Positions 5,414-40,341 of a DNA stretch of 46,501 nt are shown here, in pieces (position 1 is the first letter of the stretch; the number at the start of each line of letters is the position of its first letter). Under the pieces are notes generated by a model. It saw only the letters and a program-made list of their open reading frames with translations. It searched no databases and was not told the origin of the DNA. The DNA is taken from positions 1 through 46,501 of the forward strand of contig CAIQPK010000034.1 in the NCBI GenBank assembly GCA_903873705.1. Reading direction: 5' to 3'. A program made the translations under genes and the position numbers. The DNA is from an uncultured Acidobacteriota bacterium (GTDB lineage Bacteria > Acidobacteriota > Terriglobia > Terriglobales > Acidobacteriaceae).

Positions 5414-5517
5414 CCCCACCCGTTCCGCAAAAGCGCGGCACGAATGGGGCACCCGCGCGTTGGTGCCACGGCGGAGGAGAAGCAGATTCCTTCGCTGCGC
5501 TGCGGAATGACAATCCT
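5414..5517. repeat. Composite ~105-bp dispersed element, intergenic copy
   Basis: This lies between trmFO and the acetyltransferase gene. The left end is an imperfect hairpin (CCCCACCCGTTCCGC ... GGCACGAATGGGG) followed by CACCCG. The right end is GCAGATTCCTTCGCTGCG, CTGCGGAATGACAA. Two colinear relatives with the same order and almost the same length lie inside lhr (27696-27801, 30030-30136). The acetyltransferase stop codon (TAG, 5516-5518) lies at the edge of the element, so the last few residues of that protein may have been replaced by it. Confidence 0.75.
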
Positions 5518-17693: not shown

Positions 17694-17744
17694 AAGCAAC
17701 GGCAAAGGCAAACGCAGATCCTTCGCTGCGCTCAGGATGACAAG
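17694..17744. repeat. Repeat modules in the egtB-egtD gap
   Basis: One degenerate unit of the 18-mer array (AAGCAACGGCAAAGGCAAA, 17694-17712) is followed directly by the half-element GCAGATCCTTCGCTGCGCTC, AGGATGACAAG (17714-17744). The half-element matches the right end of the composite repeat at 5482-5514 and the copies inside lhr (28830-28858) and nrdJ (37717-37750). Confidence 0.8.
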
Positions 17745-26953: not shown

Positions 26954-27130
26954 TTACTTGTAAGGGCAGTGACGGCAGTCGGAGTTGCAACAGTAGCCGC
27001 GGCGCAGGTGGTACGCCTCGGTGAAGACCCTGTATGGGCCTTCGAAGTAGAACTCGCCTTCCAGCGGCACAAGTGTTTCGGCTGACTCGCCGGGGCGAGG
27101 CTGGGCGCGCTCGGGTGTGGGATCGCTCAC
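26954..27130 (-). CDS. DUF5522-like small Cys-rich protein
   Basis: A 58-residue gene starting with GTG at 27130. The C-terminus reads GEFYFEGPYRVFTEAYHLRR then GYCCNSDCRHCPYK, which matches the conserved core of DUF5522 (FTxxYHLRRGYCCxxxCRHCPY). Four of five Cys are arranged CC-x3-C-x2-C and could bind metal. The GTG overlaps the lhr stop as GTGA, a 4-base overlap that signals translational coupling. The function of the family is not known. It is too short for most automatic ORF cut-offs. Confidence 0.85.
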   Translation of the reverse strand: MSDPTPERAQPRPGESAETLVPLEGEFYFEGPYRVFTEAYHLRRGYCCNSDCRHCPYK

Positions 27131-30100
27131 GAGAACAAGTCTAATGAAGCCGGCGCAGCGATGGGCCGGGCTGGGATGGCGTCGTCGCGGAGGATGTCGG
27201 CGATACTGCGGGTGCGCCTGAGTTTGGGCGCTGCTGCCGGTGGAGGGGTCGTCGCCGGGTCGGCGTAGATGGCGCCGTTCTGGAAGTGGAGCTCACGCCC
27301 GGGAATGGCGGGAACGCGGTCGCCCGGGATGAGGATGCCGGCGAGGTTGAGGGGGTCGACGGCGGCGACGGTAACCGGCGGCTCGGCGCTGCGCGAAGGT
27401 GCGTCGCGGCGGGCCTGACGGAGAGAGTCGACGGCTTCGGGGAGCGCGAACTGCTCGCCGAAGGGACCGTTGACGAAGCGGCCGCCACGGATTTCTCCGC
27501 GGGCTTCGAGGCGGCGGAGGATGGGGGCGAGGTCGCGCCACTTGGGGGCGTTGGACTCGCGGGCGAGGAGGTCGCGGAAGAGCACGCCGTAGCGGCAGAG
27601 CAGGATGCGGGCGTGGGCGTCGAGGGCCGCGTCCTGGCGGCGGGCGGCGGCGATGGCTTGCTGTTGCCTTTCTTGGGCGGCGAGCGTCTTGCCTTCCCAC
27701 GTCCCAGGGGCGGGAGGTGGGGCACCCGTGGTTGTGGCTATCCCAACTGCGGGTCGCTCCAGTGCGCTGCGTTCCGGTCGAGATGACAGGTTGGCGGAGG
27801 GGTCAGAAAAGAGCGACCAGCGACCGGCGGTGGTGCGGGCGGCGGCGCGTTTGCGCAAGGATGTGGCGGGGGTTTGGGCTATGGCGGCGGACTTGCGGCG
27901 GGGGTCCATCATGGCGCGGAGCTGGTCGAAGCCGTCGGCGGAAGCGAGGCCCGCGGTCGCGAGTTCCCAGAGGGCGGTGGCCGTTTGGAGCTTGGTGAGG
28001 TTGGTGAGGCGCTGGAGGTCGGCGGTGAAGGCGGCGCCCCGTGCTGAAAGGAGCGTACGCACCTGTTGCGCTTCGGGAGAGAGGGATTGGGTGAGGATTT
28101 GTTCGTCGACGGATTTGGCGGCGAGGGCGTGGTGGAGCCACTCGGAGGACTCGCGCAGGAAGAAGGTGATGGGAGCGGCGCTCGTGGGGATGACGCGGCG
28201 GGGGCCGGTGCTTTCCGCCGCCGACCATGCGGGGTGGGGAGAGATGCGGCCCCAGCCGATGATGCCGGCGAGGCAGAGGTTGTCGAGCCAGCGGGGGTCG
28301 TAGTGGGCGACGCGGGCGGGAAGGAGGGTGCGTTCCCACTCGACGGCGGGGGCTTCGAAGCCTTCGAGCTGCTCGATGGCGGCCAGCACGGCCTCTTCGC
28401 CCGTCGGGCGGGGGTTGGATTCGGTCTCGGGGGCAAGGTGGTGCCAGTCGAGCAGCCAGCGCATGAAGATGTTGGCGTTGACGGGCTCGACCTGCTTGCG
28501 CAGCGTGCCGAGGGTGAGGCGGTGGACGCGCTGAAGAATGCGCCGCTCGCACCACTCGATGGCGTGATCGTCGGCGGTCGCAGGGTACTCGAAGATGCCG
28601 CGCATGGCGAGGCCCTGCATTTCCATGGCGAGCATGGACTGGTAGACGTCGGAAGGTTGCAGGTGGGTGAGAGCGGCGAGGTGGATGGAGGTGGTGGGGC
28701 CGAGGAGTTGGAGCCAGCCTTGTACCAGCGTGGTGATCGCAGCGGAGCGGGGTGGAATGGTTTGCGCGGGACGCATTTCGGTGCCAGCGAGGATGCGCTC
28801 TTTGACGTCGGTGGCTCCAGCGGCGAAACGCAGATCCTTTGCTTCGCTCAGGATGACCATTTCTTTGGGGGTGTGGAGAGTCGCGTCGGGCCAGAGGAGA
28901 GCGGCGGCAGCGAGGCGCTCGGCGGCGATCCAGCTGGGTGTGTCGTTGATGGTGACGAGGTGGGCGCGGTTGTTTTGTGCGAGGCGTTGGAAGAAGTGCG
29001 GCCAGTGGCGGGTGGCTTGCGGCTTCTCTGCGGCTTGGGCATCAAGGTAGGGGAGTGGCAGAGCGACGAGTGAGAGCAGGAGGTCGTGGAGCTCGTGCTC
29101 GTCACGAATGCCGGGTTGCAACTGCTGGCGGACCGCGGCGATGGCGGCGGGGTCGAGGCGGCGGGGGTTGTCGGCGAGGTGATCGGGGAGGGTGCGGCGT
29201 GTGCTGACCGCGCGGGTACGGCGGGCGGCGGCGTCCTCGTCGTCAAGGAACGCGTAAGGCATGGCGTTGATGAGCTCGTGCGCGAACTGCGATGGGACCG
29301 GAGTGTCGACGGCAAGGCAGGTGATGGCGCCCGAGGCGATGCCGCGCAGGATGTCGAGCAGTCCTTCGATGTCCATGGCTTCGGTGAGGGTGTCTTTCAT
29401 GACTTCGCGGACGAGCGGGTGGTCGGGGATTTCGATGTCGCCGGCCATGGTCTCGGGGCAGGCCGAGGCGTGGGGGAAAACACTGGCGAGGAGATCGTCC
29501 GATCGGGTGCGCTGGATCTGCGGGGCGACGCGCTTGCCCTTGGACATGCGTAGAAGCTGGAGCGAACGCCCGGCGGCCCAGCGCCAGCGGTTTTTGAAGA
29601 GCGGCGAGGGGATGGCGGCCTGCTCGAGGAGTTCCTTCGCGGTGTGCTCAGTGAGGAACTTGAAGACGTCGGCGAGCGGGAAGCTGTGCTGCTCGGCCAG
29701 CGAGATGTTGATGCCGTTGTCGGTGGCAGCGGCTTGCAGCTCGAAGTTAAAGCCTCGGCAGAAACGCTTGCGGAGAGCGAGGCCCCAGGCCTTGTTGATG
29801 CGTCCGCCGAAGGGCGCGTGCAGGATGAGCTGCTGGCCGCCGCCTTCATCGAAGAAGCGCTCGGCGATGATGGTGGTTTTGGTGGGGACGGCTCCGAGGA
29901 CCGCGCGGCCGTGGACGACGTAGGTGATGAGCTGTCGGGCGGCGGAGGGGGAGAGGAAGCACTCGTGCTGGAGGAAGGCAATCGTGTTGAGGATCTGCTG
30001 TTGCGGCGTTCCTGCGGCTCCCGTGGAATCCCATGTCCGAAAATCCGGACATGGGGCACCCGGTCCTGTGCCGCTCCAAGCTGCAGGTCTCTCCACTCCG

Positions 30101-32118
30101 CTGCGCTCCGGTCGAGATGACAAATTTGTGGAGGGATCTAGTTGAGTTGAAGATTCTGCGGTGAAGTTAGCGAAGGCGTTGGTGAGGTCGTTGGGTTTGA
30201 CGTTGCGGGTGCGGGCGTCGATTTCGGCGCGGAGGTCGGCTACGCCGTCGGAGAGGACGCCAGTGCGCTGGGGAGCTTCGCCTTCCCAGAAAGGGATGCT
30301 GGGTGGGGCGCCGTGGGCGTCTTCCACCAGAACTTTTCCCGCGGGATCGATGCGCTGGATGCGCCAGCTGGTGTTGCCGAGCAGGACGACGTCGCCAGGT
30401 GAGCTGTCGACGGCGAAGTGCTCGTCGAGCGTGGCGATCTGGACGTTCTCGGGTTGGAGCATGACGGCGAAGAGGCTGGTGTCGGGGATGGCGCCGCCGT
30501 TGGAGATGGCGATCATGCGTGCGCCGCGGCGTGGGTGCAGGACGCCCTGTACGCCGTCGCGAAGGAGGTAGGCACCGTAGCGGCCGCGGGAGCTTTCGAT
30601 GCCTTCGTGCAGGAGGTGGATGAGCTCGTCGAAGTGGGCGCGGGTGAGGTTGCGGTAGGGCCAGGCGCGGCGGACGAGGTTGTAGAGGGCGGTCTCTTCC
30701 CAGGGCTCAGCACCGCACATGGCGACGATCTGCTGCATCAGCACGTCCATGGGCGAGTCGGGAACTTCGAGGCGGTCGAGCTCGCCGGCAACCATCTTGC
30801 GCAGGAGTGCGGACTGCTCCATAAGGTCGTCGCGGGTCATGGAGAAGAAGCGGCCCTTGGGGATGGCGCCACGCCAGTGCCCTGCCCTGCCGACTCTTTG
30901 CATTGCCACAGCGACAGCTCGTGTGGTCGCAATCTGGCAGACGAGGTCAACGGTGCCGATATCGATGCCGAGCTCGAGGGAGGCGGTGGCGACGAGTATT
31001 TTGCACTCGCCGGCTTTGAGGCGTTGCTCGGCGTCGAGGCGGAGGGCGCGAGAGAGTGAACCGTGGTGTGCCGCTACGGCGTCTTCGCCGAGACGGTTGG
31101 AGAGCTCGAAGCTAATGCGCTCGACGAGCTTGCGGGTGTTGACGAAGACGAGGGTGGAGCGGTGCTCGTTGGCAAGCGTGGCGAGCTTGTCAAAGACCTC
31201 GTCCCACATGGCGATGCTGGCGATGGAGCCGAGCTCGTCGGAGGGGACTTCGATGGCGAGGTCGAGGGTGCGGCGCCGGCCAACCTGGATGATGGTGGCG
31301 GGTGAGGCTTGTGCATCCTGCGAACCCATGTCCGAGAATTCGGACATGGGGCACTCCGATGGTGCTGGTACTTGGCGCGAGTTGAGTGTGCCGGTGAGGA
31401 AGCTGGCTACCAGCTCGATGGGGTTCTGGGTGGCGGAGAGGCCGATGCGTTGCGGTGGTTGCGCCATGCCGGCGAGCATCGCTCCAGGTGAGAGGCGGTT
31501 CTCGCCGCATACCAGCGCGTCGAGCCGTTCGAGCGTGAGGGCGAGGTGGGCGCCGCGCTTGTCGTCGGCGATGGCGTGGATCTCGTCGACGATGACGGTT
31601 TGCACGCGGGTGAGGTTCTGGCGGGGCTTGCCGGCGGTGAGCAGGATGTAGAGCGACTCGGGTGTAGTGACGAGGATGTGCGGCGGCGTTTTGAGCATCG
31701 CCGTGCGCTCTTTCTGGAGCGTGTCGCCGGTGCGGACGCCGGTGCGGATGTGCGGGCAGAGATAGCCGCGCTGTTGCGCGAGCTGCTGTATCTCAGCAAG
31801 CGGGCCGTCGAGGTTTTTCTGGATGTCGTTCGACAGCGCCTTCAGCGGCGAGATGTAGACGACGTGGGTGCGGGATTCGAGGCCACCTTCGAGGGCAGCG
31901 CGGAGGAGCTTGTCGATGGAGACCAGAAAAGCTGTCAGCGTTTTGCCGGAACCGGTGGGCGCGGAGATGAGGGTTGGGTCGCCGCGCAGGATGGCGGGCC
32001 AGCCTTCAATCTGCGGTTCGGTGGGTGTACCGAACTTTGCGGTGAACCATTCCTGCACGAGCGGGTGCGCCCAGGTGAGTGCGGGATGGACATCGAGAGC
32101 TGGCGGCGCGGACGTCAT
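27127..32118 (-). CDS. lhr: Lhr-type DEAD/DEAH helicase with four repeat-derived insertions
   Basis: Large superfamily 2 helicase. Walker A APTGSGKT at residues 53-60, DEIH at 178-181, SPLKALSND, TTPESLY, LVFVNTRKLVERISFELSNR, VGRAGHWRG and a long C-terminal Lhr region. Lhr proteins are DNA/RNA helicases implicated in DNA repair. At 1663 aa it is longer than usual Lhr (about 1400-1550). Four segments are encoded by dispersed repeats: about residues 255-265 (CPMSEFSDMG), 660-696 (LSSRPERSGVERP... GAPCPDFRTWD), 1087-1096 (VILSEAKDLR) and 1438-1474 (LSSRPERSALERP... GTWEGK). None breaks the frame. The stop overlaps the DUF5522 start. Starts at the ATG 32118. Confidence 0.93.
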   Translation of the reverse strand: MTSAPPALDVHPALTWAHPLVQEWFTAKFGTPTEPQIEGWPAILRGDPTLISAPTGSGKTLTAFLVSIDKLLRAALEGGLESRTHVVYISPLKALSNDIQKNLDGPLAEIQQLAQQRGYLCPHIRTGVRTGDTLQKERTAMLKTPPHILVTTPESLYILLTAGKPRQNLTRVQTVIVDEIHAIADDKRGAHLALTLERLDALVCGENRLSPGAMLAGMAQPPQRIGLSATQNPIELVASFLTGTLNSRQVPAPSECPMSEFSDMGSQDAQASPATIIQVGRRRTLDLAIEVPSDELGSIASIAMWDEVFDKLATLANEHRSTLVFVNTRKLVERISFELSNRLGEDAVAAHHGSLSRALRLDAEQRLKAGECKILVATASLELGIDIGTVDLVCQIATTRAVAVAMQRVGRAGHWRGAIPKGRFFSMTRDDLMEQSALLRKMVAGELDRLEVPDSPMDVLMQQIVAMCGAEPWEETALYNLVRRAWPYRNLTRAHFDELIHLLHEGIESSRGRYGAYLLRDGVQGVLHPRRGARMIAISNGGAIPDTSLFAVMLQPENVQIATLDEHFAVDSSPGDVVLLGNTSWRIQRIDPAGKVLVEDAHGAPPSIPFWEGEAPQRTGVLSDGVADLRAEIDARTRNVKPNDLTNAFANFTAESSTQLDPSTNLSSRPERSGVERPAAWSGTGPGAPCPDFRTWDSTGAAGTPQQQILNTIAFLQHECFLSPSAARQLITYVVHGRAVLGAVPTKTTIIAERFFDEGGGQQLILHAPFGGRINKAWGLALRKRFCRGFNFELQAAATDNGINISLAEQHSFPLADVFKFLTEHTAKELLEQAAIPSPLFKNRWRWAAGRSLQLLRMSKGKRVAPQIQRTRSDDLLASVFPHASACPETMAGDIEIPDHPLVREVMKDTLTEAMDIEGLLDILRGIASGAITCLAVDTPVPSQFAHELINAMPYAFLDDEDAAARRTRAVSTRRTLPDHLADNPRRLDPAAIAAVRQQLQPGIRDEHELHDLLLSLVALPLPYLDAQAAEKPQATRHWPHFFQRLAQNNRAHLVTINDTPSWIAAERLAAAALLWPDATLHTPKEMVILSEAKDLRFAAGATDVKERILAGTEMRPAQTIPPRSAAITTLVQGWLQLLGPTTSIHLAALTHLQPSDVYQSMLAMEMQGLAMRGIFEYPATADDHAIEWCERRILQRVHRLTLGTLRKQVEPVNANIFMRWLLDWHHLAPETESNPRPTGEEAVLAAIEQLEGFEAPAVEWERTLLPARVAHYDPRWLDNLCLAGIIGWGRISPHPAWSAAESTGPRRVIPTSAAPITFFLRESSEWLHHALAAKSVDEQILTQSLSPEAQQVRTLLSARGAAFTADLQRLTNLTKLQTATALWELATAGLASADGFDQLRAMMDPRRKSAAIAQTPATSLRKRAAARTTAGRWSLFSDPSANLSSRPERSALERPAVGIATTTGAPPPAPGTWEGKTLAAQERQQQAIAAARRQDAALDAHARILLCRYGVLFRDLLARESNAPKWRDLAPILRRLEARGEIRGGRFVNGPFGEQFALPEAVDSLRQARRDAPSRSAEPPVTVAAVDPLNLAGILIPGDRVPAIPGRELHFQNGAIYADPATTPPPAAAPKLRRTRSIADILRDDAIPARPIAAPASLDLFS
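27696..27801. repeat. Composite ~106-bp dispersed element inside lhr (copy 1)
   Basis: Left end CCCACGTCCCAGGGGCGGGA, GGTGGGGCACCCG (hairpin); right end GCGGGTCGCTCCAGTGCGCT, GCGTTCCGGTCGAGATGACA. It is colinear with 30030-30136 over its whole length. Read in the lhr frame it encodes LSSRPERSALERPAV ... GAPPPAPGTWEG. Confidence 0.85.
28830..28858. repeat. Half-element (GCAGATCC...GATGACC) inside lhr
   Basis: GCAGATCCTTTGCTTCGCTC, AGGATGACC. It is a variant of the right end of the composite element, present without the hairpin end. In the lhr frame (minus strand) it reads VILSEAKDLR. Confidence 0.8.
30030..30136. repeat. Composite ~107-bp dispersed element inside lhr (copy 2)
   Basis: Left end is a 10-bp perfect hairpin CCCATGTCCG / CGGACATGGG (30030-30055) followed by GCACCCG; right end GCAGGTCTCTCCACTCCGCT, GCGCTCCGGTCGAGATGACA. 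In the lhr frame it reads LSSRPERSGVERPA ... GAPCPDFRTWDST. Confidence 0.88.
31325..31350. repeat. Hairpin half-element inside lhr
   Basis: Perfect 11-bp arms CCCATGTCCGA / TCGGACATGGG with loop GAAT, followed by GCACTCCG. This is the hairpin end of the composite element without the other end. In the lhr frame it gives CPMSEFSDMG. Confidence 0.85.
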
Positions 32119-35970: not shown

Positions 35971-35995
35971 AGGGCCGGGTCTTTGACCCGGCCTT
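35971..35995. repeat. REP hairpin, left of the RAYT gene
   Basis: AGGGCCGGGTC-TTT-GACCCGGCCTT, an 11-bp stem (one G-T) with a TTT loop. The RAYT stop (35995-35997) touches it. It is the inverted partner of the hairpin at 36549-36569. Confidence 0.85.
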
Positions 35996-36435
35996 CACGA
36001 TGATTCTTCTTTTGAAACCCGTACTCCTCCGCGGTACGCGGAGGAGTACGGGTAGTCTTCTGCCGTTTCTACAAGCCGTTTGCGAACGGGGTTTTGATGG
36101 ATGTAGGTCACGTGGGCATCGAAGTCTGCTCGATCGCGGACAACGTGATCTGTGTATCCCTGTTGCCAGAAACGCTCTCCGCCCATCTTGTGCGCGAAGC
36201 TGCCCTTGAGGTCCTTCATCGCTTTTGGAAGGTCATCGGTGGTGATGAGGAGATGGATGTGGTCTGGCATGACGGCAAACGCGTGGAGTTTGTAGATACC
36301 GGTGCGACGGTAGTGTTGCAGCGTTTCGAGGAAGAGGAGGGCGGTGGTGTCGACCTGAAAGCGGCGACGACGCATGAGGGTGATCGCGGTAATGAAGAAA
36401 GTTCCGGTGTTGGTGGTTCTCGGAGGCCGGGACAT
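35995..36435 (-). CDS. REP-associated tyrosine transposase (RAYT)
   Basis: 146 residues of the Y1 HUH transposase type (IS200-like, TnpA-REP). HAFAVMPDHIHLLI gives the metal-binding HxH pair His59 and His61, and VTYIHQNPVRKRLV carries the catalytic Tyr111, in the context expected for RAYTs. These enzymes act on single-stranded REP hairpins. The gene is flanked by inverted REPs. Its 3' end (36018-36052) contains a perfect 16-bp hairpin within the coding sequence. The ATG at 36435 has no clear ribosome site, so expression may be low. Confidence 0.92.
   Translation of the reverse strand: MSRPPRTTNTGTFFITAITLMRRRRFQVDTTALLFLETLQHYRRTGIYKLHAFAVMPDHIHLLITTDDLPKAMKDLKGSFAHKMGGERFWQQGYTDHVVRDRADFDAHVTYIHQNPVRKRLVETAEDYPYSSAYRGGVRVSKEESS
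36018..36052. repeat. Perfect 16-bp hairpin inside the RAYT gene
   Basis: CCCGTACTCCTCCGCG / CGCGGAGGAGTACGGG with a GTA loop. It encodes AYRGGVRV-region residues near the C-terminus, in an otherwise normal RAYT sequence. Confidence 0.85.
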
Positions 36436-36548
36436 GGGGGATATCTTAGGCTTTGGGGCTGCCTGGAAGAAGGCAATTTTGTCGCTGCGGCTTCGCCTGC
36501 GCTCCGGCCTTCGGCAGAGTGGAAGGGTGGTCGGGCAGGCTTGGTGAT

Positions 36549-36569
36549 GGGCGGGTCAAAGACCCGCCC
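36549..36569. repeat. REP hairpin, right of the RAYT gene
   Basis: GGGCGGGTC-AAA-GACCCGCCC, 9 perfect pairs with an AAA loop, followed by CTTCCCTTCTCG. Its reverse complement aligns with the left REP and its flank (CGAG..GGAAGGG), so the two are inverted copies. Confidence 0.85.
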
Positions 36570-36626
36570 CTTCCCTTCTCGCGAACAATGATGTCTCTGG
36601 CAAGGAAGGACGTCGTATTGCTGCAC

Positions 36627-36686: not shown

Positions 36687-39600
36687 TTAGCTGCAGCCGC
36701 TGGTTCCGCCGCATTCCATGCATCTGTAGCAGGAGCCGTTGCGGACCATGATGGCTCCGCAGGTGCTGCAGCTGGGGGCGTCGCCCATGTCGTACATGGA
36801 CTTCATGGCGTCGGCGGTGTGGACGAAGGAGCGGTCTTCGACCTTCAAGGGGCCAGGGTCCAGGGCCCAGGGTCCAGAAGACGGGTTGAGACCGTAGCTG
36901 GCGGTGAGGTCGGGGGCTATGCCTTGCTGGGGTGGGTTGCGGTCGTGGTGTTCGAAGGCGTCGCCCAGCATGGTGTGGGGTTCGGGGATAGGAGCTGAGG
37001 GTGCAGGGTCCAGGGCCCAGGGTCCAGAGTGCGGCTCTGCGGTGCTCGATGCTGTCGTGGCCGGAGCGGGGGGCGTCGGGATGGCGGTGCTGTTGGGGGC
37101 GGTGATGTGGCCGGCTACGGGGACGGATTTTGGTGAGGCCAGGCCGGCGAAAAGGTCGAGCTGGGTGCCGGAGAGGAAGCGGAGCTGCATCCAGCGGAAG
37201 AGGTAATCCATGATGGACTTGGCGTAGCCGATCTGCTCGTTGCCGGTCCAGCCGGAGGGCTCGAAACGGGTGTGGGCGAACTTCTCGCAGAGGACCTTCA
37301 GCGGGACGCCGTGCTGCAGCGAGAGGCTGATGGCGAGGGCGAAGCTGTCCATGAGGCCGGAGATGGTGGAGCCTTCCTTGGCCATGCGGATGAAGAGCTC
37401 GCCGGGCTGGCCGTTGGGGTAGAGGCCGACGGTGATGTAGCCTTCGTGGCCTCCGATGGAGAACTTGTGGGTGACCGAGGCGCGCTCGCCGGGGAGGCGG
37501 TGGCGGACGGCGCGCGGCGGGGCGATGGCGTCGTGGGAGTCGGCGTTCTGGGAGGCGGCGGTGAGGAGCGCGGTTAACTGGGCTTCGAGGGAGGCCTTTT
37601 GCTGCTGGGTGGTGGCTAGCTCGGCGTGGGTGGCGGCGGCGTGGGACTGCGCTGCGGCGAGGGCGGCGGTGAGGGCGGCCGTGGCTTCGGTGGAGGCTTG
37701 TGCCGCTTCTGGTGAAGCAGATCCCTCCGCTGCGCTGCGGGATGACAATGTCTGGGGGGTAGTCGCCGGGAGCTTGGATTTCTCTTCCGCGGTGAGGATC
37801 TTGGTGCCCTTCTTTTCGTCGCTGGTCTGGGCGGAGACGTTGAGGGGCTGGGTGCCCTTGGAGCCGTCGCGGTAGATGGCTACGGCCTTGAGGCCGAGGC
37901 GCCAGCTTTCGGTGTAGGCGTCGGCGATGTCCTGGACGGAGCAGTCGTTGGGGAGGTTGACGGTCTTGGAGATGGCTCCGGAGAGGAAGGGCTGGGTGGC
38001 CGACATCATCTTGACGTGGCCCAGCCAGTGGATGCTGCGGGTTCCCTTGGCGGGCTTGAAGGAGCAATCGAAGACGGCGAGGTGCTCGGGCTTGATGCCG
38101 GGGGCGCCTTCGATGGTGCCGGTGGCGTCGATGTAATTGACGATGCCTTCAACTTCGTTTTCGGAGTAGCCGAGCTTGAAGAGAGCACCGGGGACGGTGT
38201 TGTTGACGATCTTGATCATGCCGCCGCCGACGAGCTTCTTGTACTTGACGAGGGCGAGGTCGGGCTCGATGCCGGTGGTGTCGCAGTCCATCATGAAGCC
38301 GATGGTGCCGGTGGGGGCGAGGACGGTGACCTGGGAGTTGCGGTAGCCGAACTGCTCGCCGAGGACGAGGGCCTCGTCCCAGGCGTTCTGGGCGGCGGCC
38401 TTCATGTCGGGGAGGTTGGGAGCGATGAAGGGCTCGGTGGTGTTCTGGAGGGCGCGGTCAATGTTGTTGACTTCGGCGCGGTGCATGCGGATGACGTCGA
38501 GGAAGGGCTCGCGGTTGACGTAGAAGCCGGGGCAGGCACCGCCCTGGACACCGGTGGCCTGGGTGAGGGGGGTGGCGGCGCCGAGGGGCGGGCAGTCGGC
38601 GGCGATGCGGGCGGATTGGGCGTAGGCGTCGCCGCAGAGGATCGAGGTAACGCAGGCGGCGAAGGCGCGGCCGGCGTCGGAATCATAGGGGAGGCCGAAG
38701 TTCATGAGCAGGGCGCCGAGGTTGGCGTAGCCGAGGCCGAGCGGGCGGTAGTCGTGGGAGTTCTTGGAGATTTGTTCGGTGGGGTAGCCGGCGGCGTCGA
38801 CGATGATTTCCATCGCGGTGGTCATGACGCCGATGGCGTGGCGGTAGCTGGGGATATCGAACTGGCCGCCGGGGGTGAGGAACTTCATGAGATTGAAGCT
38901 GGCCAGGTTGCAGGCCGAGTCGTCGAGGAACATGTACTCAGAGCAGGGATTGCTGGCGTTGATGCGGGCGGTGTTCTTGCTGGTGTGCCAGCGGTTGATG
39001 GTGGAGTCGTACTGCATGCCGGGGTCGCCGCACTGCCAGGTGGCTTCGGCGATCTGGTGCATCATGTCGCGGGCAGGGGTTTCCTTGACGACTTCCTTGT
39101 CGCGGACGGTGCGAGTGGCGAAGGTGTGGTCGTTGACGACGGCGTTCATGAACTCGTCGGTGACACGGACGGAGTTGTTGGCGTTCTGGAAGAAGATGCT
39201 GCTGTAGGCTTCGGAATCCGGGCCGGAGCCGTCGTAACCGGCCTGCATGAGGTGCCAGGCCTTGGCTTCTTCCTTAACCTTGCACTGGATGAAGTCTTCG
39301 ATGTCCGGATGGTCGACGTTGAGGATGACCATTTTTGCAGCACGGCGGGTTTTGCCGCCGGACTTGATGACGCCGGCGAAGGCGTCGAAGCCACGCATGA
39401 AGCTGAGCGGGCCGGAGGCGGTGCCGCCGCCGGAGAGGACTTCCATGGAGCCGCGGATGGCGGAGAGGTTGGAGCCGGCGCCCGAGCCCCACTTGAAGAG
39501 CATGCCTTCGGTCTTGGCGAGGGTGAGGATCGAGTCGAGGGAATCCTGCACGGAGTTGATGAAGCAGGCGGAGCACTGCGGGCGGGTGTAGCCGGTGACG

Positions 39601-40142
39601 GAGAAGGCTACGCGGCCCTGCTCGGCGTCCCAGTGCCAGTTCTGGGCATCGGAGTTGGGCTCGAAGCGGTCGCAGCCGACGTTGAACCAGACGGGGGAGT
39701 TGAAGGCGGCCTTCTGGTGGAGCAGGATGTGGGCGAGCTCGGCGAAGAAGACGTCGGCGTCTTCCTGGGAGTGGAAGTAGCCGTCGCGGATGCCCCAGTT
39801 GCGGACCGACTCGGCGACGCGGGTGATGAGGGCACGGACACCGGACTCGCGCTCGGGGGTGCCGATCTGGCCGTGGAGGTACTTGCTGGCGACGATGTTG
39901 GTGGCGGTCATGGACCAGTCTGCGGGGACTTCGACGTTCTTCTGCTCGAAGATGAGCTTGCCCTTCCAGTCCTGGATGACGGCGTCGCGGCGCTCCCAGG
40001 TGATCTCGTCGAAGGGGGAGACGCCGGGCTGGGTGAAGTGGCGCTCGAAGTGGAGGCCGGGAGCAGAGCCGTGCGCGGGGAAGGCGGGCGCGGGAGTGGA
40101 GGCGGAGGTGGTGGTGTCGACGGGAACGGTGAACTCAGCCAT
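36687..40142 (-). CDS. nrdJ: Vitamin B12-dependent ribonucleoside-diphosphate reductase
   Basis: Class II ribonucleotide reductase, 1151 aa, supplying deoxyribonucleotides with adenosylcobalamin. Conserved blocks: TRPQCSACFINSVQDSLDS, NPCSEYMFLDDSACNLASFN, APTGTIGFMMDCDTTGIEPD, a C-terminal TSCPD-like region (GHEGYITVGLYPNGQPGE) and a zinc-ribbon tail CSTCGAIMVRNGSCYRCMEC. Start ATG 40142 with AAGGAG; upstream in-frame starts add non-homologous residues. Repeats have entered the C-terminal part: at about residues 797-808 (LSSRSAAEGSA) and twice as GPWALDPxP near 1037-1046 and 1087-1098, in the poorly conserved linker before the zinc tail. Confidence 0.95.
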   Translation of the reverse strand: MAEFTVPVDTTTSASTPAPAFPAHGSAPGLHFERHFTQPGVSPFDEITWERRDAVIQDWKGKLIFEQKNVEVPADWSMTATNIVASKYLHGQIGTPERESGVRALITRVAESVRNWGIRDGYFHSQEDADVFFAELAHILLHQKAAFNSPVWFNVGCDRFEPNSDAQNWHWDAEQGRVAFSVTGYTRPQCSACFINSVQDSLDSILTLAKTEGMLFKWGSGAGSNLSAIRGSMEVLSGGGTASGPLSFMRGFDAFAGVIKSGGKTRRAAKMVILNVDHPDIEDFIQCKVKEEAKAWHLMQAGYDGSGPDSEAYSSIFFQNANNSVRVTDEFMNAVVNDHTFATRTVRDKEVVKETPARDMMHQIAEATWQCGDPGMQYDSTINRWHTSKNTARINASNPCSEYMFLDDSACNLASFNLMKFLTPGGQFDIPSYRHAIGVMTTAMEIIVDAAGYPTEQISKNSHDYRPLGLGYANLGALLMNFGLPYDSDAGRAFAACVTSILCGDAYAQSARIAADCPPLGAATPLTQATGVQGGACPGFYVNREPFLDVIRMHRAEVNNIDRALQNTTEPFIAPNLPDMKAAAQNAWDEALVLGEQFGYRNSQVTVLAPTGTIGFMMDCDTTGIEPDLALVKYKKLVGGGMIKIVNNTVPGALFKLGYSENEVEGIVNYIDATGTIEGAPGIKPEHLAVFDCSFKPAKGTRSIHWLGHVKMMSATQPFLSGAISKTVNLPNDCSVQDIADAYTESWRLGLKAVAIYRDGSKGTQPLNVSAQTSDEKKGTKILTAEEKSKLPATTPQTLSSRSAAEGSASPEAAQASTEATAALTAALAAAQSHAAATHAELATTQQQKASLEAQLTALLTAASQNADSHDAIAPPRAVRHRLPGERASVTHKFSIGGHEGYITVGLYPNGQPGELFIRMAKEGSTISGLMDSFALAISLSLQHGVPLKVLCEKFAHTRFEPSGWTGNEQIGYAKSIMDYLFRWMQLRFLSGTQLDLFAGLASPKSVPVAGHITAPNSTAIPTPPAPATTASSTAEPHSGPWALDPAPSAPIPEPHTMLGDAFEHHDRNPPQQGIAPDLTASYGLNPSSGPWALDPGPLKVEDRSFVHTADAMKSMYDMGDAPSCSTCGAIMVRNGSCYRCMECGGTSGCS
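36853..36880. repeat. Heptamer repeat inside nrdJ (copy 1)
   Basis: CCAGGGT, CCAGGGC, CCAGGGT, CCAGAAG on the plus strand. In the nrdJ frame it encodes SGPWALDPGP. Confidence 0.85.
37003..37030. repeat. Heptamer repeat inside nrdJ (copy 2)
   Basis: GCAGGGT, CCAGGGC, CCAGGGT, CCAGAGT. In the nrdJ frame it encodes SGPWALDPAP. It is 150 bases from copy 1, in the same frame. Confidence 0.85.
37717..37750. repeat. Half-element (GCAGATCCC...GATGACAA) inside nrdJ
   Basis: GCAGATCCCTCCGCTGCGCT, GCGGGATGACAATG. It matches the right end of the composite element (5482-5514). In the nrdJ frame it reads LSSRSAAEGSA, a different frame of the repeat than in lhr (VILSEAKDLR). Confidence 0.85.
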
Positions 40143-40341
40143 GGAAAAACTCCTTGGAAAAACGGTCTGGGGAGCTAGAAGCTCCTCTGCGTACGAAGGT
40201 CGGGGTGGCGGCCTTGAGGGGATGCTCGAAGGTCTGTGTCGGGCGCTGCAGAGTGCGGCCCAGGATGCAGGCCATGCGACCTTGCAGATCACAGAAAGTC
40301 GGTTGCAGATGCGAAGGTAACGCCGCATCTGGGGTGAGTCA

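Follow-up and report, generated by a model that had tools for sequence, protein, structure and literature searches.

Two families of short dispersed repeats lie in frame in lhr and other genes of an Acidobacteriaceae genome and follow the G-rich strand

Introduction

Palindromic repeats inside genes are already known from Rickettsia and some other bacteria. The Rickettsia palindromic elements (RPEs) are described as short palindromic repeats of 105 to 146 bp that lie between genes and also in frame in conserved protein genes (PMC2229807). Intragenic REPs of the GTAG/CGTC type, such as those of Opitutus terrae, are often found in replication and repair genes, and linker or loop sites have been proposed for them (PMC3733652). 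Acidobacterial tyrosine transposases flanked by inverted repeats (TIR-associated tyrosine transposases, TIRYT) are likewise known, and those of T. saanensis, K. versatilis, A. capsulatum, and G. mallensis have been grouped as one type (PMC3733652). Canonical REPs carry their tag on the 5' side of the hairpin (PMC6006769, section 12); the same paper describes fork-tied single-strand insertion for IS608 and ISDra2 and cites work on the replication-set orientation of transposable elements.

Here we describe two repeat families, A and B, from the draft genome of an uncultured member of the Acidobacteriaceae. They work like RPEs without being classed as such, the likeness being one of description. 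Shared with RPEs are in-frame palindromic repeats in conserved protein genes together with intergenic copies; the differences are the phylum, the two modules that also occur apart, the orientation along the replication strand, and the tie of A to a clade of RAYT transposases. As with the GTAG/CGTC REPs, REP hairpins lie within genes, but the tag here is GGGGCACCC (reverse complement, GGGTGCCCC) and the copies are single and co-oriented, whereas dimers predominate there; the GT[AG]G foot of canonical REPs is absent. The resemblance to REPIN/RAYT (TnpA_REP) systems (PMC6006769, PMC3116915) is that hairpins flank a specific clade of HUH tyrosine transposases, in inverted arrangement at loci L264 and L296 of other genomes; the difference, apart from the foot, is that the host genome here is without the cognate transposase. 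Our literature search, which had most subscription journals outside its range, found no account of these repeats, of their position in genes of the lineage, or of REPs that follow a fork-strand rule, and searching by DNA and peptide strings returned no papers.

Results

The window, by which we mean the whole 46,501-nucleotide stretch analyzed, comes from contig C34 of a draft genome of 4.18 Mb in 94 contigs. The product of its lhr gene carries the Pfam domains DEAD, Helicase_C, WH_Lhr, DEAD_assoc, WH3_Lhr, and WH4_Lhr and has 1663 residues, compared with ~1460 to 1480 in the shortest full relatives in our alignment. An initial annotation had read two segments of this gene, 27696-27801 and 30030-30136, as in-frame copies of one composite repeat of ~105 bp, with a third, more diverged copy between genes. 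The two segments are indeed colinear (75% over 110 bp and 79% over the right-hand 84 bp), and both lie within the single open frame that encodes the Lhr domains. Their resemblance is not a matter of chance, because a 106-bp query found at least 46 matches at E<=10 in the 4.18-Mb genome, with 40 of 116 first-look candidates scored. The idea of a single composite unit had to be given up, as A and B are each also found alone, and the two insertions became four: two A+B pairs, one A alone (31325-31355), and one B-sibling (28826-28860). The third copy is real and intergenic (5415-5454 plus 5478-5514), but it combines an A-hairpin variant with a B-sibling ending GGAATGACA and so is not a diverged copy of the same two subfamilies. 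The features of the window are as follows.

27127..32118, minus strand: lhr, host gene, one open frame of 1663 codons
27697..27728, plus strand: A hairpin of the first lhr pair (site S6), stem 9/10, from stem scan and alignment
27745..27788, plus strand: B element of the first lhr pair, antisense frame giving LSSRPERSALERPA
28826..28860, plus strand: B-sibling of the AGGATGAC type in lhr (site S4), peptide MVILSEAKDLRF
30030..30061, plus strand: A hairpin of the second lhr pair (site S2), stem 10/10
30079..30122, plus strand: B element of the second lhr pair, peptide LSSRPERSGVERPA
31325..31355, plus strand: A hairpin alone in lhr (site S1), peptide ECPMSEFSDMGS
5415..5454, plus strand: A-variant hairpin, intergenic, with GGGGCACC at 5446
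5478..5514, plus strand: B-sibling ending GGAATGACA, intergenic
17710..17743, plus strand: B-sibling, intergenic
37714..37749, plus strand: B-sibling in frame in class II ribonucleotide reductase, peptide TLSSRSAAEGSAS
36687-40328, minus strand: class II ribonucleotide reductase, host gene, with the B-sibling between the barrel and TSCPD domains
35995..36435, minus strand: Y1/HUH RAYT-like gene of another clade, flanked by inverted GGGTCTTTGACCC / GGGTCAAAGACCC palindromes

The RAYT-like gene between its inverted palindromes has the layout of the acidobacterial TIRYT (PMC3733652), and a further long hairpin (ACCCGTACTCCTCCGCGG...) lies downstream of it in the region 35975-36575. The ribonucleotide reductase also contains the peptides GPWALDPAPS and GPWALDPGP, apparently from another repeat (CCAGGGCCCAGGGT); peptides like these two occur as well in RNase R and RecQ proteins that host B copies and in a Bryocella Lhr. 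At gathering scores, Rfam found one tRNA in the whole window and nothing else.

Iterated profile searches split the repeats into two dispersed families. Family A is a 32-base unit with a 10-bp stem and a 6-base loop, followed by GCACCC, and its hairpin ends in TGGGGCACCC; family B is a 44-base unit near CTGCAGGTCTCTCCACTNCGCTGCGCTNCGGTCGAGATGACA that ends in GATGACA, after which GATTTGTGGAGG is often found, able to pair back with CTCTCCAC. At E<=1e-3, 26 A and 50 B copies were found in 835,028 bases of this genome. This sample comprised the window, two long contigs (200 kb of each), and 20 hit-centered stretches; because the long contigs, picked for length, were already known to hold matches, the densities in this sample are not genome averages. 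The long contigs (400 kb) held 8 A, 7 B, and 8 B-siblings. The two modules are sometimes close together, with GGGGCACC no more than 35 bases upstream in 8 of the 50 B copies. When sites with GGGGCACC were scanned for an upstream stem, at least 8 of 10 stem positions paired at 52 of 70 sites, compared with 1 of 76 for control octamers, and many stem sequences were represented.

The A module is a palindrome whose stem is kept by compensatory change. In 29 sequences (20 distinct; the window copy at 27697-27728 sits one column off in this alignment), 95.5% of cells were paired and 22 cells carried double changes, and none of 500 shuffles reached either value. The number of stem pairs with a double change was 4, not above the shuffles (162/500), and further pair types were fewer than in the shuffles. 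None of 39 tag hairpins from this genome stood within 200 bp of a partner in the inverted arrangement of a REPIN. In the single-contig genome G003, many B-like matches form inverted pairs within ~100 bp, unlike the single copies of the window genome. The B consensus matched at least 13 of 247 genomes in a phylum-wide draw with up to three candidates scored per genome; all of them, the present one included, belong to the same family. An A+B query matched 17 of 28 genomes of the genus, again counting the present one, at E<=1e-6. In the flanks of aligned copies, on which this comparison rests, neither a shared target nor a duplication was seen, and no exact empty site was found.

With genes predicted by our own codon-based caller, 8 of 26 A and 21 of 50 B copies of this genome lay inside coding sequence, as did 15 of 49 B copies in the single-contig relative G011; 15 of 26 A and 27 of 50 B copies of this genome lay wholly between predicted genes. 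On the two long contigs, the in-gene share was 1/8 for A, 2/7 for B, and 0/8 for B-siblings. All 36 in-gene B copies (21 in this genome and 15 in G011) were antisense to B's named strand. Coding bases are about equal on both strands of the skew domains (sense, 51% in this genome and 45% in G011), and with about half of the coding sequence sense, the chance of an all-antisense set is 2.7e-7 for 21 copies and 1.2e-4 for 15. The SSRPERS peptides are encoded by the strand opposite B's named strand; this frame or its variants accounted for 30 of the 36 copies (17/21 and 13/15), and the other six used two other antisense frames. A stop interrupts one of B's three sense frames and none of its three antisense frames, so the missing sense copies cannot be put down to stops alone. 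The 4 of 40 B-siblings found in genes were also antisense, and in-gene A copies were antisense in six cases and sense in two.

The element is not confined to lhr, and the initial annotation's view that dispersed palindromic elements have been inserted in frame in real genes in the manner of RPEs holds for its other hosts too. RNase R (with a B copy between RNB and S1), RecQ (three B copies), a UvrD-type helicase (two B copies), Omp85 (a sense A near the N terminus), a PMT_2 glycosyltransferase, and ribonucleotide reductase all retain their domains in Pfam searches. Could lhr and the other hosts instead be decaying genes or annotation artifacts and the insertions neutral debris? Some hosts are doubtful: 4 of the 36 in-gene B copies lie no more than 26 codons from a predicted start, two hosts in this genome have fewer than 250 aa, and the relative G008 has lhr spread over several frames. 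One A host, L117:886-3552, is probably a frame artifact in which the gene caller falsely joined what look like a hydrolase and an ABC ATPase, with an A peptide near the join. Against this, Lhr is a single open frame of at least 1529 codons in 21 of 27 matching genomes, the present one included, and most of the others lie at contig ends; together with the domains retained in RNase R, RecQ, ribonucleotide reductase, and Omp85, this makes decay or misannotation a very unlikely explanation.

Lhr was compared in 43 proteins; of 53 named loci, 10 were set aside by choice (most of them partial, L160 and L190 apparently nearly full), and L199 and L200 were under the length limit. Six linkers between or beside Pfam domains vary: their common short lengths are 14, 12, 13, 0 to 5, 13, and 11 residues, and those of the window Lhr are 37, 69, 19, 39, 13, and 49. 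Aligning Lhr proteins with and without the segments showed the inserts to be absent from Terriglobus albidus and from five of the eight Edaphobacter-labeled proteins, which are short at all six sites; those of Edaphobacter M8UP30, RYN3, and RYN7 are not. Other species have other repeat peptides at the same sites, as at S1 (SSRPERSEVERPA in G011 and CHPEQSEGSASRLERPA in BP9.128) and S5 (GTPSLQARVSQP or its like in MAG202, L46, and G011), and the peptides at one site vary between species in family and frame. The A or B models matched the DNA of 8 of the 43 lhr genes at E<=1e-2, and many other long linkers hold related or unrecognized sequence. On a quick tree of the insert-free columns, long states, defined as more than 6 residues over the short form whatever the sequence, required at least 7, 7, 6, 9, 4, and 9 changes (gains or losses) at the six sites, at least 42 in all. 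The same Lhr sites have changed repeatedly, and the Lhr proteins of several relatives are without inserts.

This repeated use of six sites would also be expected if the in-gene copies were conserved functional Lhr linkers that had spread to other genes. We consider such an origin highly improbable: 20 to 33 of the 43 proteins are insert-free at any one site, a given site holds peptides of different family and frame from species to species, and elsewhere the repeats are mostly intergenic. As for distant phyla, the one such Lhr that was compared, that of M. smegmatis (PDB 7LHL, 5V9X), does not show the segments as conserved domains: it has a gap at the S1 insert (249-268) and, as judged from the ends of the aligned stretches and with 1444-1479 (S6) outside the comparison, shorter spacers at the S2 and S4 inserts (644-700 and 1088-1110). 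Across 42 loci, the absolute GC skew near lhr correlated with Lhr length (Spearman 0.47), a value that is uncorrected for kinship and serves only as a lead.

Orientation was compared with the sign of the GC skew in up to 20 kb around each copy. In this genome, the named strand lay on the G-rich strand in all 26 A and all 50 B copies and in 40 of 40 B-siblings ending AGGATGACA or GGAATGACA, one of which is shared with the B set. The same was true of 49/49 B copies in G011. Twenty further stretches from this genome and G011 (10-kb windows) gave 53/53, with B copies and TGGGGCACCC tags counted together. In the relative G009, 7/7 A and 26/27 B copies conformed, the exception being at a local skew of 0.005, and in G235, of genus g4, 6 of 7 did. 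The strand rule thus holds in this genome and in G011 and almost completely in G009. The few off-rule stem sites (2/52 in the stem scan and 1/39 in the tag-hairpin count) have stems that begin unlike A. Composition alone puts a G-rich word on the G-rich strand ~75% of the time, because G-rich control octamers lay there in 57 of 76 cases in this genome and 31 of 42 in G011; B's named strand has slightly more C than G. Among other dispersed families in a k-mer scan, CCAGGGCCCAGGGT was on the G-rich strand in 10 of 11 cases and the tandem-like GTGAATAGTGAATA in 8 of 12. The scan of this genome's stretches also turned up words present on the G-rich strand only: TGAGACCCAAGGCT (11/11), GCCTTGGGGTACCT (10/10), and GCATACCCCAGGGG (11/11). 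Skew around the copies was mostly 0.2 to 0.39; a typical GC skew is 2.5% (SkewDB, PMC8941118). The window and contig C72 have an unusually strong skew, often 0.2 to 0.4, which is independent of gene direction.

In G011, dnaA lies at 2,139,838 and the skew turns from minus to plus at ~2.148 to 2.150 Mb, 8 to 10 kb away, as at an origin; the G-rich strand is therefore taken as the leading strand. With fork direction drawn in this way from skew and dnaA, the repeats show the fork-tied orientation that marks IS200/IS605-type elements. It does not extend to G157 (genus g7, with weak skew), where 22 of 47 members of a B-like family are on the G-rich strand; since that family is unoriented, the rule is not inherent in the sequence. 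The skew also flips at ~0.41, 1.62, 2.65 to 2.88, and 3.21 Mb in G011 and in contig C5 of G009, and the elements turn with it. For elements to track local skew at the G011 flips away from dnaA, inversions younger than the insertions, or assembly flips, are needed.

A complete or nearly complete orientation in three genomes is also what polar signals of chromosome organization, similar to KOPS or Chi, would produce if selection, and not the mode of insertion, kept them in place. The elements look little like such signals: they are 32 to 44 bp long with a covarying stem, A-type hairpins adjoin a transposase clade, many copies lie within genes, A and B are absent from long stretches (for example, 60 to 120 kb of C90), and G157 keeps its B-like family without a strand rule. 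On balance, we regard this role as unlikely.

The draft genome has two Y1_Tnp genes, one in the window (35995-36435) and one on C69; both belong to other clades and are flanked by other palindromes, and no RAYT of the cognate clade was found. As candidate movers of A and B, these genes were rejected, since their flanking palindromes differ: no A or B lies near the C69 gene, and the nearest TGGGGCACCC is ~5.9 kb from the window gene. A palindrome flanking one of the genome's own RAYT genes is present in two copies, one per strand, and so says nothing about strand preference. When 30 RAYT loci of the group were scanned for TGGGGCACCC, L264 proved to have it on either side. At L267 it stands on one side and a variant hairpin on the other, and L256, L257, and L259 each have one tag at a greater distance. 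Over 109 residues, the proteins of L264 and L267 share 50% identity. Searching with the L264 protein at E<=1e-10 gave matches in 160 of 200 family genomes, other RAYT clades included (the window gene scored E 1.5e-13). The clade set was taken as the best 30 loci of this search plus L264 and L267, and the controls were other RAYT loci, not random genes of the same genomes. A tag hairpin, with GGGGCGCC and GGGGCTCC also allowed, lay within 500 bp at 28 of 32 clade loci compared with 1 of 28 other RAYT loci; a recount over loci with a located gene gave 27 of 30 (both sides in 22) compared with 0 of 7. The sole tagged control, L270, may itself belong to the clade. Among 57 of 61 proteins that were comparable, clade members were 49.5 to 80% identical to L264, and the others were at most 34% identical or had no match. 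A-type hairpins flank one specific RAYT clade; genomes that keep a RAYT of this clade include G001 and G023. For B, no linked RAYT emerged, the 30 RAYT loci holding one B match, in L252, ~1 kb from the gene.

The cognate clade is absent from this genome, and B keeps the strand rule without a RAYT, so one may ask whether the elements spread by template switching or reverse transcription at the fork, with no RAYT involved. A reverse transcriptase was rejected as a required factor, as G011 and G009 both have elements and no RVT_1 match, whereas this genome has one; moreover, A-type hairpins mark one RAYT clade. Spread of this kind deserves some weight, but we think it rather unlikely.

Discussion

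The reading that we prefer, at a probability of roughly 70%, is that A and B are orphan REP-type elements that spread by replication-coupled insertion into single-stranded DNA and are tolerated in proteins as linkers. Both would be short nonautonomous repeats of the REP type. A would be the REP that goes with a RAYT clade widespread in the family; the draft genome does not have the clade whose REP A resembles, so A would stand here without its transposase, and we call it an orphan. B may be a second element without a known mover that is sometimes joined to A. Entry would occur in one orientation relative to the replication fork, the simplest cause being insertion into single-stranded fork DNA, as described for IS608 and ISDra2 (PMC6006769). 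The fork argument is not a clean one, because the canonical layout with the tag 5' of the hairpin, as given in that source, corresponds here to the strand opposite the lagging-strand template. Copies within genes would survive only where they leave the reading frame open and fall in a flexible interdomain linker, and Lhr, RNase R, RecQ, and other proteins would thereby gain linker peptides.

The strand rule, the antisense-only rule, and the link to a RAYT clade are new relative to the initial annotation. The hosts are free-living soil Acidobacteriaceae, in which the same protein linkers have been hit across species, a natural replicate experiment. Peptides that look out of place in proteins of the group, SSRPERS and ILSEAKDL among them, are explained by the repeats. 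A replication-strand rule that is nearly without exception in three genomes, together with a tie to a transposase clade present in some genomes and missing here, makes the spread of REPs and the tolerance or use of their peptides by the host directly testable.

More tentatively, we suggest that in the strongly skewed chromosomes of the Granulicella group, orphaned REP-type elements might insert only in one fork-defined orientation; B would form a hydrophilic linker in the antisense direction, so that genes facing the fork alone would collect B in frame. If this is true, replication polarity would decide which proteins gain linker peptides, a directional change in proteins across DNA repair and other genes.
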